From Actinomycetes bacterium (GTDB taxonomy: Bacteria; Actinomycetota; Acidimicrobiia; Acidimicrobiales; Acidimicrobilacustridaceae), in assembly GCA_029782145.1 (NCBI GenBank), contig JAKOVH010000026.1:124001-188000 (forward strand): 64,000 nt of DNA. Reading direction: 5' to 3'. The notes under the pieces are model-generated. The model did no database searches, was not told where the DNA came from, and saw nothing but the letters and a program-made list of their open reading frames with translations. This document shows, piece after piece, positions 32,909-38,124 of this stretch; within the stretch, counting starts at the first letter, position 1, and each line of letters opens with the position of its first letter. The position numbers and the translations under genes are program-made.

Positions 32909-33974
32909 CTACGGGTCGAACAGGGTGGCCTCGAAGGCGTCAGCGGGCTGGGGCGCCTCCTCGGCGGTGGTGACGTCGAGCGGGTGGTAGCCGGGCACGT
33001 CGTCGTGGGGCGTGTCGAGGTAGACCTTCGCTTCGGGCAGCCCGCCGAAGCGGCCGTGGCTCCAACGCAGCTCGACGTGGCCGTCGACGGCCCGGTCCTC
33101 GCCGGTGGCCAGCACCCGGTAGGCGGCCCGCCACCCCACCCGGGGTTGGCCGCCGGGTTGGGCCACCACGTCGAAGCCTCGCAGCGAGAACCGCTGGCGC
33201 CAGTCCCACGGCGTGTCGATCCGCAGGCGCACCGAACCGGTCGGGCTGGCGCCCAGCACGAAGTAGGGCGCCGAGCCGATGCGCAGCAGCCGCCACAGCA
33301 CCGCCTCGCGGTTGCGGGCCGTGACCTGCCCCGACCAGCGGGCGGCGGTCGCCTCGGCCACGGCCTGGCACAGCCGGGCGTAGGGCTCGACGGTGGGGGC
33401 CGGCCAGGCGCCGCGGAGGGCTGCGGCGAGCTGCCGGCGGCGGCCCTTGTCGAGGTCGGACGGGCGGACCGGCCAGCCGGTGCCGCCCACCGCGTCGACG
33501 CACGCTCCGTAGAGGTCGTGGTGCTCCCTGGCTGCCACCGCGTCGTACCAGTCGCCGCGCTCCTCGACCGGGGCCTGCGAGAGCAGGCCGTCGACCAGCC
33601 GCTGCGGGCTGGCGTTGTGCAGCACCTTCGAGAGGTACTTGCAGCTCACCAGGTAGACGTGGTCGACGCGCAGGTCGGAGGGCACCACCTCGTCGCCGGG
33701 GGCCCGGCGGGCACCGGTCCACTCGATGATCCGCGGCACCCGCCCGTTCAGCGCGTCGGGTGCCTCGAGGGAACGCCCGGCCGTTGGCGAAGCCGTGCTC
33801 GAAGTCGGCGCGATACGTCCCCTCCCTCCACAGCCGCTCGAGTCGGTCCCAGTCGGCGGGCTCGAGGTTGGCCAGCACACCCGGCCGGGCGGCGAGGGTG
33901 GTGGCCACGTCGGTCTCGCCGACCATGCCGAGCCCGGTGGCCAGCTCCGTGACGAAGGTGCGGTCGGCCGCCAC
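32909..33974 (-). pseudogene. Frameshifted restriction-endonuclease-like partner of the methyltransferase
   Basis: Two reading frames must be joined. The first starts at a GTG and gives about 68 residues ending HGFANGRAF; the second begins near LEAPDALNGRVPRIIEWTG and continues for about 285 residues. The switch maps to a GGG run at 33769-33771 (plus strand), and the locus length is 3n+1, so one extra base explains it. VDHVYLVSCKYLSKVL resembles a nuclease core motif, and the gene follows a DNA methyltransferase by 15 bases, so it is probably the restriction partner. The shift may be a real mutation or a sequencing error. Family not firmly recognised. Confidence 0.65.
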
Positions 33975-33989
33975 GTGCGCGCCCCGCCG

Positions 33990-35471
33990 TCAGAGGGCGG
34001 AGGGCCCCTCGGCGGCGAGCCGGGTGAGCCGGGCGCGCCCCTCGGGGTCGAGGAGCTCGACCAGGGCGGCCACCGGCTTCTCGGGCCAGCCGGTGGCGGT
34101 GCGCAGCGCCTTCGCGCCGGCGCTGCCCGGGGTGGGAGCGTGGGTGGTGAGCAGCACCAGCGGCAGGCCGAACGCCGGGTCGAGGTGCAGCACGGACGCC
34201 TCGCCGAGCGCCTTCCAGAGGGTGTCGGCTCGTCGCATCCCGGTCGGGCTGGTGGTGAAGGCGCCGGACACGTCGAAGGCCCACTCGACGCCGGTGGCGT
34301 CGGTCGCGACCAGGTCGACCTCGGTGCCCGCCCGGGGGACCTTCACACCGGCCCGCAGGTCACCGAACCCGCAGTCGCGCAGCAGGGCGGCCGCCACCTC
34401 CTTGACGCCGTGCCCCTCGCGCACGGCGGTGGCCAGCGAGGGATCGCCGCCTCGGGAGCGGGCGCGGCCGGCGGCGGCCGCGATGTCGACCGGCGGCCCT
34501 GCCCGCTCGTCGTCCGGCGCCGCCGCTCGACGCGCCTGCTCGGCGGCGATGCGCTCGGCGGCCCGGGCCACGTAGGCGGGATCGGTGTCGTAGCCCACGA
34601 AGCGGCGTCCGGTGCGCACGGCGGCCACCGCGGCGGAGCCCGAGCCCATGAACGGGTCGAGCACCAGGTCGCCGACGTAGGTGTACAGGTGGACGAGCCG
34701 CTCCGGCAGCTCGACCGGGAACGGCGCCGGGTGGCCGACGCGAGTGGCGCTCTCGGGCGGCAGCTCCCACAGGTCGGTGGTGGCCTCGAGGAACTCGTCG
34801 CGCGAGATGCTCACCCGCGACGGGAGCCCCCGCTCCTCGCGCTCGGTCGGCGTGAGGGCCCGGTCGAAGCGGCCCTTGCTGGCGATCACCACCCGTTCGG
34901 TGACGTCGCGCAGCACGGGGTTCGACGGGCGCTGGAAGGTGCCCCACGCGCACGAGCCGCCGGCGGCGCGGCCCTTCCACCACACCACCTCGCCGCGCAG
35001 CAGCAGGCCGAGGTCCTGCAGGATCTGGGTGACGTCGCCGGCGAGCGACCGGTAGGGGCGGCGGCCGAGGTTGGCGACGTTGACGGCGATGCGCCCGCCC
35101 GGCTCGAGCACCCGCTCGCACTCGGCGAACACCCGCTCGAGCATGGCGAGGTACTCGAAGTAGTCGCCCGGCACGCCGTTCTCGCCCAGGCTCTCCTCGT
35201 AGGCCTTGCCGGCGAAGTACGGCGGCGAGGTGACCACCAGCGCCACCGAGTTGGGCTTGAGGTTCTGCAGCTCGCTGATGTCGCCCAGGTGCACGGTGTC
35301 GACCACCGCGGGATCGTTGAGCTCCACGGTGTCGTCGGCCGACAGCTCCGGCGCCACGAACCGCTCGTAGAAGGCGGTGGCGTCGTGGCTCTCGCGCCGC
35401 CCGGAGCCGAAGCGAGCGGTGCTGGTCGGACCTCGGCGCCGGCTCGGACGGGGCTCGTCGGCGGTGCTCAC
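33990..35471 (-). CDS. DNA methyltransferase (beta class, N4-C/N6-A) with nuclease-like C-terminus
   Basis: A 493-residue protein. Motif IV TSPPYFAGKAYEE comes first (near residue 82) and motif I DPFMGSGSAAVAAVRTGRRFVGYD comes later, the circularly permuted beta order of N4-cytosine/N6-adenine enzymes. After about residue 330 a second domain begins: GVKVPRAGTEVDLVATDATG, then EWAFDVSGAF, which has the spacing of a PD-(D/E)xK core with the lysine replaced. The GTG start overlaps the stop of the ribbon-helix-helix gene. With the frameshifted gene it makes a likely restriction-modification operon. Confidence 0.86.
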   Translation of the reverse strand: MSTADEPRPSRRRGPTSTARFGSGRRESHDATAFYERFVAPELSADDTVELNDPAVVDTVHLGDISELQNLKPNSVALVVTSPPYFAGKAYEESLGENGVPGDYFEYLAMLERVFAECERVLEPGGRIAVNVANLGRRPYRSLAGDVTQILQDLGLLLRGEVVWWKGRAAGGSCAWGTFQRPSNPVLRDVTERVVIASKGRFDRALTPTEREERGLPSRVSISRDEFLEATTDLWELPPESATRVGHPAPFPVELPERLVHLYTYVGDLVLDPFMGSGSAAVAAVRTGRRFVGYDTDPAYVARAAERIAAEQARRAAAPDDERAGPPVDIAAAAGRARSRGGDPSLATAVREGHGVKEVAAALLRDCGFGDLRAGVKVPRAGTEVDLVATDATGVEWAFDVSGAFTTSPTGMRRADTLWKALGEASVLHLDPAFGLPLVLLTTHAPTPGSAGAKALRTATGWPEKPVAALVELLDPEGRARLTRLAAEGPSAL

Positions 35472-35650
35472 GGGGCCACCTCCTCGACCGGCGGGAGCTG
35501 GTCGAGGTAGGCCTCGACGGCACGGGTGACGAGGAGGTTGGCCGACACGTCGCGCGCGTCGGCCTCCCGGTGGAGGCGCTCGTGCAGCGATTCGGGGAGC
35601 CGCACCGCGGTGGGCACGCGGGGCTCGTCGGACAGACGGGGTCGGGCCAC
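35468..35650 (-). CDS. Ribbon-helix-helix protein
   Basis: A 60-residue protein with VPTAVRLPESLHERLHREADARDVSANLLVTRAVEAYLDQL, the strand-helix-helix pattern of CopG/Arc-type DNA-binding proteins. The start is a GTG; the frame is open further upstream but no better start is seen. It is translationally coupled to the methyltransferase gene (GTGA), so it probably regulates the restriction-modification operon, a role often taken by a C protein. An antitoxin-like role is also possible, but there is no toxin next to it. Confidence 0.75.
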   Translation of the reverse strand: MARPRLSDEPRVPTAVRLPESLHERLHREADARDVSANLLVTRAVEAYLDQLPPVEEVAP

Positions 35651-36440: not shown

Positions 36441-36480
36441 CGGTAGGATCGCAGGACCGATGCTTCCTTTGGAGGGAACG

Positions 36481-36612
36481 ATGGAGCAGACGCTCGAGCA
36501 CACCCGCGACGACGAGCTCGAGGCCGACGCCGTGGCCGACACCGACGACCTCGCCGAAGAGGAGCTCCTCGTCGAGGAGATCTCCATCGACGGCATGTGC
36601 GGCGTCTACTGA
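36481..36612 (+). CDS. mftA: Mycofactocin precursor peptide MftA
   Basis: A 43-residue acidic peptide (about 19 Asp/Glu) that ends in ISIDGMCGVY, the invariant tail of mycofactocin precursors. MftC acts on the final Val-Tyr, removing the carboxyl group of Tyr and joining the two side chains; after cleavage the dipeptide becomes the redox cofactor mycofactocin. A strong GGAGG lies seven bases upstream. It is the first gene of the locus, followed by mftB and mftC. Confidence 0.96.
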   Translation: MEQTLEHTRDDELEADAVADTDDLAEEELLVEEISIDGMCGVY

Positions 36613-36685
36613 GCCACCGCTGAGCCCCGGCACCCCACCGGGCCCTCCCTTGGCCTCCACCTCCACCGCGACGAGCCCGCCGCTC

Positions 36686-36988
36686 GTGACCGGCCCGGCG
36701 TTCGACGCCGACCGGCGCTGGCGGCTCCACGACCGGGTCGCCCTGCGGCCCGAGCCGTTCGGCGCGCTCGCCTACCACTACGGCAACCGGCGGCTGACCT
36801 TCCTGCGCTCGCCCGACCTGGTGGCGGTCGTCGAGCGCCTCGCCGAGCAGCCCTCCCCCCGGGCGGCGTTCGACGCGGCCGGCATCGACGCCCGCCGCTG
36901 GCCGTCGTTCGAGAAGGCCCTCACCTCCCTCGCCGCCGGCGAGTTCATCGTCCCCGACGAGCCCGCCGAGCCACAGGACCACCGATGA
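36686..36988 (+). CDS. mftB: Mycofactocin precursor-binding protein MftB
   Basis: A peptide chaperone of about 100 residues of the RRE/PqqD-like type that delivers MftA to the radical SAM enzyme. FDADRRWRLHDRVALRPEPFGALAYHYGNRRLTFLRS is the MftB signature, followed by the helical part that ends ALTSLAAGEFIVP. I chose the GTG that gives VTGPAFDADRRW; a TTG 12 codons upstream is an alternative, and neither has a strong ribosome site. It overlaps mftC in ATGA. Confidence 0.92.
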   Translation: MTGPAFDADRRWRLHDRVALRPEPFGALAYHYGNRRLTFLRSPDLVAVVERLAEQPSPRAAFDAAGIDARRWPSFEKALTSLAAGEFIVPDEPAEPQDHR

Positions 36989-38124
36989 CCGCGCTCACCG
37001 ACCAGCTGGCCCTCGGCCTCAACTCCCCCATCTGCCTCACGTGGGAGTGGACCTACGCCTGCGACCTGCAGTGCGTGCACTGCCTGTCGAGCTCGGGCCG
37101 CCGCGACCCACGCGAGCTCACCACCGACGAGATGAAGGCCATCGTCGACCAGCTGGCCGAGATGCAGGTCTTCTACGTCAACATCGGCGGCGGCGAGCCG
37201 ATGCTGCGCCCGGACTTCTTCGAGATCGTCGAGCACTGCGTGGCCAAGGGCGTGGGCGTGAAGTTCTCAACCAACGGCGGACGCATCACCGCCGAGAACG
37301 CCCGCCGCCTGGCGGCCATGGACTACGTCGACATCCAGATCTCCCTCGACGGCGTCGACGAGGAGACCAACGACGTCATCCGCGGCGAGGGCACCCACGC
37401 CCGGGTGCGCCGGGCCATGGACCACCTGAAGGCGGCCGGCTACCCGCAGTTCAAGCTGTCGGTGGTCATGACCCGCCAGAACGTCGAGCAGGTCGACGCC
37501 TACGAGGCGCTGGCCGCGGAGTACGGCGCCGAGCTGCGCCTCACCCGCTTCCGCCCGTCGGGCCGCGGCATCGACACCTGGCACGAGCTGCACCCCACCT
37601 CCGAGCAGCAGGTGCGCCTCTACCACTGGCTGCTCGAGCGGCCCCACGTGCTCACCGGCGACTCGTTCTTCCACCTCTCGGCGCTGGGCGAGCCGCTGCC
37701 CGGCCTCAACCTCTGCGGCGCCGGCCGCGTGGTGTGCCTCATCGACCCGGTCGGCGACGTCTACGCCTGCCCGTTCGTCCTGCACGACGAGTTCCGGGCC
37801 GGCTCGGTGCGCGACCCCGGCGGGTTCGCCGCGGTGTGGCGCTCCAGCGAGCTGTTCCGCTCGCTGCGCGAGCCGTCGAGCCCCGGGGCGTGCGCCTCGT
37901 GCGGCAGCTTCGACGCCTGCGGCGGCGGCTGCATGGCGGCCAAGTTCTTCACCGGCCTTCCCCTCGACGCCCCCGACCCCGAGTGCGTGTTCGGCCACGG
38001 CGAGGAGGCCCTCAGGGCGCTCGACGCGGCCGGTGGCGCAGTGCGCCCCACCGTGAGCGCCGACCACTCCAAGCCCCTCGGCGTCGGCCGGCGGCGCATC
38101 CCCGTCTCCGTCGTCCAGCGCTGA
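36985..38124 (+). CDS. mftC: Mycofactocin radical SAM maturase MftC
   Basis: A 379-residue radical SAM/SPASM enzyme. The SAM-cluster motif CDLQCVHC has cysteines at residues 26, 30 and 33; NIGGGEPMLRPDF follows. The SPASM region has cysteines in LNLCGAGRVVCLID, YACPF, ACASCGSFDACGGGCMA and PECVFG, enough for two auxiliary 4Fe-4S clusters. It decarboxylates and cross-links the Val-Tyr end of MftA using S-adenosylmethionine. Start coupled to mftB. Confidence 0.96.
   Translation: MTALTDQLALGLNSPICLTWEWTYACDLQCVHCLSSSGRRDPRELTTDEMKAIVDQLAEMQVFYVNIGGGEPMLRPDFFEIVEHCVAKGVGVKFSTNGGRITAENARRLAAMDYVDIQISLDGVDEETNDVIRGEGTHARVRRAMDHLKAAGYPQFKLSVVMTRQNVEQVDAYEALAAEYGAELRLTRFRPSGRGIDTWHELHPTSEQQVRLYHWLLERPHVLTGDSFFHLSALGEPLPGLNLCGAGRVVCLIDPVGDVYACPFVLHDEFRAGSVRDPGGFAAVWRSSELFRSLREPSSPGACASCGSFDACGGGCMAAKFFTGLPLDAPDPECVFGHGEEALRALDAAGGAVRPTVSADHSKPLGVGRRRIPVSVVQR

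Follow-up and report, generated by a model that had tools for sequence, protein, structure and literature searches.

A probable Type II-like restriction-modification operon of Acidimicrobiia in which a frameshift has probably removed restriction and left methylation in place

The operon described here lies on the minus strand of a 64,000-nucleotide stretch of DNA (the window) from an uncultured actinobacterium of the class Acidimicrobiia and encodes, in order, a ribbon-helix-helix (RHH) protein, a beta-class DNA methyltransferase and a third protein, R, as reported in a preliminary description of the same DNA. The operon is probably a Type II-like restriction-modification system, made up of an RHH autoregulator, an N4-cytosine-type methyltransferase and an endonuclease, in which restriction has been lost through a frameshift in the R gene and methylation has been kept. 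Judged from the sequence, the net +1 shift falls about 66 residues into R and would make the protein wrong from there on, so that the cell would be expected to methylate its DNA without restricting. This outcome had been proposed in the preliminary description and survives as the most likely reading, with the addition that a methyltransferase without R is a common state in the class. The operon family is placed in Acidimicrobiia, on which it appears to be centred. The features of the operon are as follows.

35468..35650, minus strand: ribbon-helix-helix protein, 60 aa, GTG start (translation)
33990..35471, minus strand: beta-class DNA methyltransferase, intact, 493 aa, GTG start at 35471, stop at 33990
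33993..34442, minus strand: C-terminal domain of the methyltransferase (residues 344-493), degenerate PD-(D/E)xK-like (AlphaFold2 model and 31-member alignment)
34263..34277, minus strand: FDVSG motif (residues 399-403) at the (D/E)xK place of that domain (31-member alignment)
33772..33974, minus strand: R before the shift, profile positions 2-70 (profile match, E 1.9e-15)
33769..33771: GGG run (CCC on the coding strand) at which the conserved frame changes, net +1 relative to relatives
32909..33768, minus strand: R after the shift, profile positions 66-335, with the putative catalytic core (profile match, E 3.1e-117)
33638..33676, minus strand: putative catalytic stretch of R, DLRVDHVYLVSCK (D...SxK; conservation in 77 relatives)

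The R gene begins at a GTG (33974) located 15 nt past the methyltransferase stop. The one-base shift at the GGG run that had been noticed on first reading is borne out by several comparisons. The R family profile matches the window first in one frame and then in another, the two meeting near 33770, and a codon-usage Viterbi scan to which the site was not supplied placed a frame switch at 33769. Furthermore, the spacing between the NGxxF and LxGR motifs is 18 nt (6 codons) in 57 of the 60 relatives in which it could be anchored and 12 nt in the other three, whereas in the window it comes to 19 nt (net +1). The portion of R past the shift shares 79% identity with the intact protein of G001, a member of the same genus. 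With its net +1, the window sequence does not contain an intact gene for the putative Type II endonuclease, whereas relatives do. The +1 frame stays open as far as 32940 (344 aa), and a gene caller would consequently miss the truncation.

The most serious alternative, and a rather unlikely one, is that the shift arose as an error of sequencing or assembly and that the system in the window is complete and working. The R gene is intact in a single frame in G001 (L031:7905-8996), dozens of others, nearly all relatives, also have it intact, and amino-acid change past the shift is not in excess. Relative to G001, pN/pS is 0.485 in the post-shift part of R and 0.564 in the methyltransferase; this part of R is thus as constrained as the methyltransferase, indicating that the break, unless it is a consensus error, is recent. 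Although the site does fall in a GGG run, this run is merely three bases long, and the codon-usage scan returns only four frameshift-like sites in 464 kb of the contig that carries the window (G000), the R site included (six in 400 kb of G038 and one in 400 kb of G042 by the same scan), which makes an assembly ridden with indels in general unlikely. The other three sites of the G000 contig are at L187:4825, L191:15965 and L199:7312. An error is also disfavoured by the state of further R genes of the family. The R gene of G179 is frame-shifted as well, at a place other than that in the window (L312:2367-3385), and the R gene of G057 has lost about 230 internal codons in frame, and with them the putative catalytic core (L036:7023-7334), although the small gene and methyltransferase of this locus are intact. 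The break in the window is one of several independent losses of R, which include the G179 frameshift, the G057 deletion and the absence of R from many genomes.

R belongs to a conserved family whose proteins are about 335 aa long; 16 relatives align across about 335 positions. No Pfam or NCBIfam family fits R, searches of single members against Pfam gave nothing usable, and the R profile did not match any solved restriction enzyme among the sequences of solved structures. Comparison of the joined protein with restriction enzyme families had been suggested as a check; PADLOC gives a marginal REase_II match (15 bits), and an AlphaFold2 model of R (pLDDT 87.7) has HinP1I as its best structural match. 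Foldseek alone returned nothing significant for this model (no E below 0.001). With VIA-align, HinP1I was placed first (2fkc, Z 6.8, a value under 8 and moderate by the tool's own warning; 1ynm, Z 5.9), and the next unrelated row scored 3.6. The superposition on 2fkc, which belongs with the monomeric enzymes of the HinP1I/MspI type, has an rmsd of 4.5 over 188 residues; HinP1I differs from R in length (247 aa vs about 335 aa), and the two have no detectable sequence similarity.

The candidate active site of R lies in a stretch with the consensus P-x-D-L-x-V-D-x-V-Y-x-V-[SQ]-[CA]-K-Y, in which the first D and the K are present in 77/77 relatives. The acid position of the motif is replaced, such that SCK is found in 73 of the 77 and QAK in the other 4. 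The active site of HinP1I is QxK, comparable to the QAK of the second clade of R, and fewer residues separate the D from (S/Q)xK in R than in HinP1I. The most likely identity of R is a Type II restriction enzyme of the PD-(D/E)xK type with a variant (S/Q)xK site, an enzyme that would be expected to cut DNA. This probable restriction enzyme family is one that Pfam and NCBIfam lack. In two loci (L145:4992-6152 and L160:4941-6083), R contains about 40 additional residues, inserted near profile position 163, and these loci are without a methyltransferase of the R-linked family. Palindrome avoidance was rejected as a route to the recognition site, as CTAG and CGCG are rare with or without R and the differences track G+C. 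CTAG is strongly depleted in all eleven sampled Acidimicrobiia genomes (observed/expected 0.13-0.52), including G000, G038 and G042, and CGCG is depleted in nearly all of the eleven.

The methyltransferase matches PF01555 N6_N4_Mtase in Pfam (E 1.2e-33) and MTase_II in PADLOC (4.3e-81). Motif IV (TSPPY, near residue 81) precedes motif I (DPFMGSG, near residue 272), which is the beta-class order, and TSPPY is invariant across the alignment of 31 family members. The SPPY motif is typical of N4-cytosine enzymes (PMC10855626), and TSPPY suggests that the enzyme is probably of the N4-cytosine type. An intact enzyme with these motifs should mark one sequence genome-wide. Its closest structural matches are TTHA0409 of Thermus thermophilus (Z 25.5; 35% identity to the methyltransferase domain in the structural alignment), CcrM (Z 24.2) and the rotifer N4-cytosine methyltransferase (Z 23.3). 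The methyltransferase domain is alike in these three and in M.PvuII (Z 20-25); however, these beta-class matches end near residue 329 or earlier, and none spans the C-terminal domain of the window enzyme. The m4C system of D. radiodurans was considered as a relative and rejected, as it consists of a GIY-YIG enzyme and an alpha-class methyltransferase (PMC10855626).

The preliminary description had assigned a degenerate PD-(D/E)xK core to this C-terminal domain, and in form the assignment is correct. The AlphaFold2 model contains a helix (356-367), three strands (370-378, 383-390 and 396-402), a second helix (415-430) and a further strand (438-442), and this helix-strand-strand-strand-helix-strand order (residues 356-442) is that of the PD-(D/E)xK core, with FDVSG at the place of (D/E)xK. 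The degeneracy is a trait of the whole family rather than of this protein: the catalytic lysine is found in 0/31 members, its column being occupied by S (12), A (11), C (2), T (2), G (2), V (1) and P (1), and the glycine that follows is invariant. Because the lysine is absent across the whole family, the tail is probably an old, dead nuclease domain inherited family-wide and not a product of local decay. A PD-(D/E)xK-like domain of this kind would probably bind DNA or contact R rather than cut. Some members of the family, such as those examined in genus g12, are without the entire tail domain and also without R.

The methyltransferase profile finds matches in 206/244 sampled Acidimicrobiia genomes (146/172 of high quality) at a threshold of E 1e-3, at which the weakest matches may be other methyltransferases, and the R profile finds matches in 39/247 (30/175 of high quality). 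The methyltransferase is thus present in most genomes of the class and mostly without R, which is the pattern of a conserved orphan. In a sample of the phylum, the methyltransferase (E up to 1e-80) occurs in 31/198 genomes and R in 5/246, and the carriers outside Acidimicrobiia fall in a few families. On a methyltransferase tree of 29 genomes, the presence of R requires at least 8 changes, of which at least 4 are forced by well-supported branches. The methyltransferase tracks RecA only weakly (Mantel r 0.275; 46/5000 permutations as high), and its descent is therefore not simply vertical, transfer or replacement having also occurred. Carriage of the system by phages was rejected, as no relatives of the methyltransferase or R were found in viral contigs.

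Relatives appear to have reached the same end state repeatedly, with the methyltransferase kept and R lost or separated. Loss of R with persistence of the methyltransferase would be expected, both because losing the methyltransferase first is lethal if R is active and because a genome-wide mark can gain a regulatory use. Since the methyltransferase is kept in most of the class while R comes and goes, the marking is probably useful in its own right in Acidimicrobiia; retained methylation may instead protect against related R genes in circulation. The enzyme is a likely class-wide DNA methyltransferase of Acidimicrobiia, a large group whose members are mostly uncultured. Within a single class, loci with the complete operon, with a broken R and with the methyltransferase alone can be compared, so that the passage to solitary methylation is directly testable. 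A more ambitious reading, which we regard as speculative and unlikely, is that the methyltransferase serves the whole class as its core epigenetic writer, equivalent to CcrM or Dam and placing an N4-cytosine mark; the dead nuclease domain, derived from a fused restriction enzyme, would then serve as a DNA-reading or partner-docking module, and R would be an optional sentinel that enforces the mark.

Similar patterns have been described elsewhere. In Halobacteria, conserved orphan methyltransferases occur beside patchy restriction-modification genes (PMC6471742), and further conserved orphan methyltransferases have been reported (PMC4752239). As in Halobacteria, the methyltransferase of Acidimicrobiia is conserved class-wide and the restriction genes are patchy. 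In contrast to Halobacteria, the methyltransferase and R of Acidimicrobiia share one operon family, and the complete, broken and methyltransferase-only states are all visible. Of the lake and ocean meta-epigenome studies consulted for a motif, one reported no methylated motif or methyltransferase for its Acidimicrobiales bin (PMC6329791), and another does not name the class (PMC9516812).

The pairing of R with the methyltransferase is evident from gene order. In the window the two genes are adjacent, as in Type II restriction-modification systems, and in 61/80 named loci R follows on the 3' side of the methyltransferase, read from the same strand. In 47 of these 61, R lies within about 110 nt of the methyltransferase or overlaps it, and in most of the remaining linked loci only a small gene separates the two. 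A conserved protein of about 102 aa is encoded between the methyltransferase and R in L134 (4680-4982), L175 (4680-4985), L045 (7209-7517) and about 20 other loci. Its gene also stays next to the methyltransferase in three loci in which no R was detected (L035, L045 and L049). The other 19/80 R loci are without a methyltransferase of the same family just upstream, a few of them being cut by contig ends. Copies of R without a neighbouring methyltransferase occur in L310 (G238), L311 (G055) and L177, where the neighbours are similar and include an SDR dehydrogenase, a DNA glycosylase-like gene (L310 and L177) and ABC transporter genes (L311 and L310).

These separate copies could be explained if R were a nuclease or DNA-binding factor linked to methylation but doing some other job, such as sensing loss of the mark or taking part in repair, an idea that we consider decidedly improbable. 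It would account for the presence of R beside unrelated genes in several genomes, as in G238, where the methyltransferase is 439 kb away and DNA glycosylase-like and dehydrogenase genes adjoin R, and it agrees with the want of any sequence match between R and known restriction enzymes. However, R is tightly linked to the methyltransferase in most loci and the histories of the two are correlated (Mantel r 0.55 between their distances; 0/2000 permutations, n = 72), and the apparent HinP1I-like fold and the catalytic pattern of R also speak against the idea. Moreover, separated Type II R and M genes and solitary restriction enzymes are already known (PMC3488263). The copies in G238 and G055, far from the presumed methyltransferase, resemble those systems; unlike them, most copies of R are linked, and the separated ones lie beside similar neighbours in several genomes.

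It is very improbable that the shift is functional, with programmed frameshifting or internal initiation yielding an active R. The putative catalytic core does lie entirely past the shift, and the open frame that contains it runs to 323 aa and includes a GTG at 33880. However, a shift at that place is not required in any relative, the 66 residues lost account for the greater part of four helices that the model predicts with confidence, and the site is not a recognised slippery sequence.

The RHH protein matches PF05534 HicB (E 2.2e-5), with weaker matches to RHH_1 and RHH_5, and its stop overlaps the GTG start of the methyltransferase (GTGA). Searches by tblastn with the RHH protein gave matches just upstream of the methyltransferase in four family members only (L031-L034). 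The RHH gene accompanies the methyltransferase in the close relatives G001, G002, G004 and G005 even where R is absent, indicating that it is not a component of restriction. The RHH protein is a probable autoregulator of the operon.

Mycofactocin genes adjoin the operon on the plus strand (window 36460-38124):

36460-36612, plus strand: short mycofactocin precursor ending IDGMCGVY
36985-38124, plus strand: radical SAM protein like MftC

MftC-like genes are also near the methyltransferase in L031, L051, L054, L059, L062 and L068, and the mftC gene of the mycofactocin cluster is found near the methyltransferase in several genera of the family, with R present or absent.
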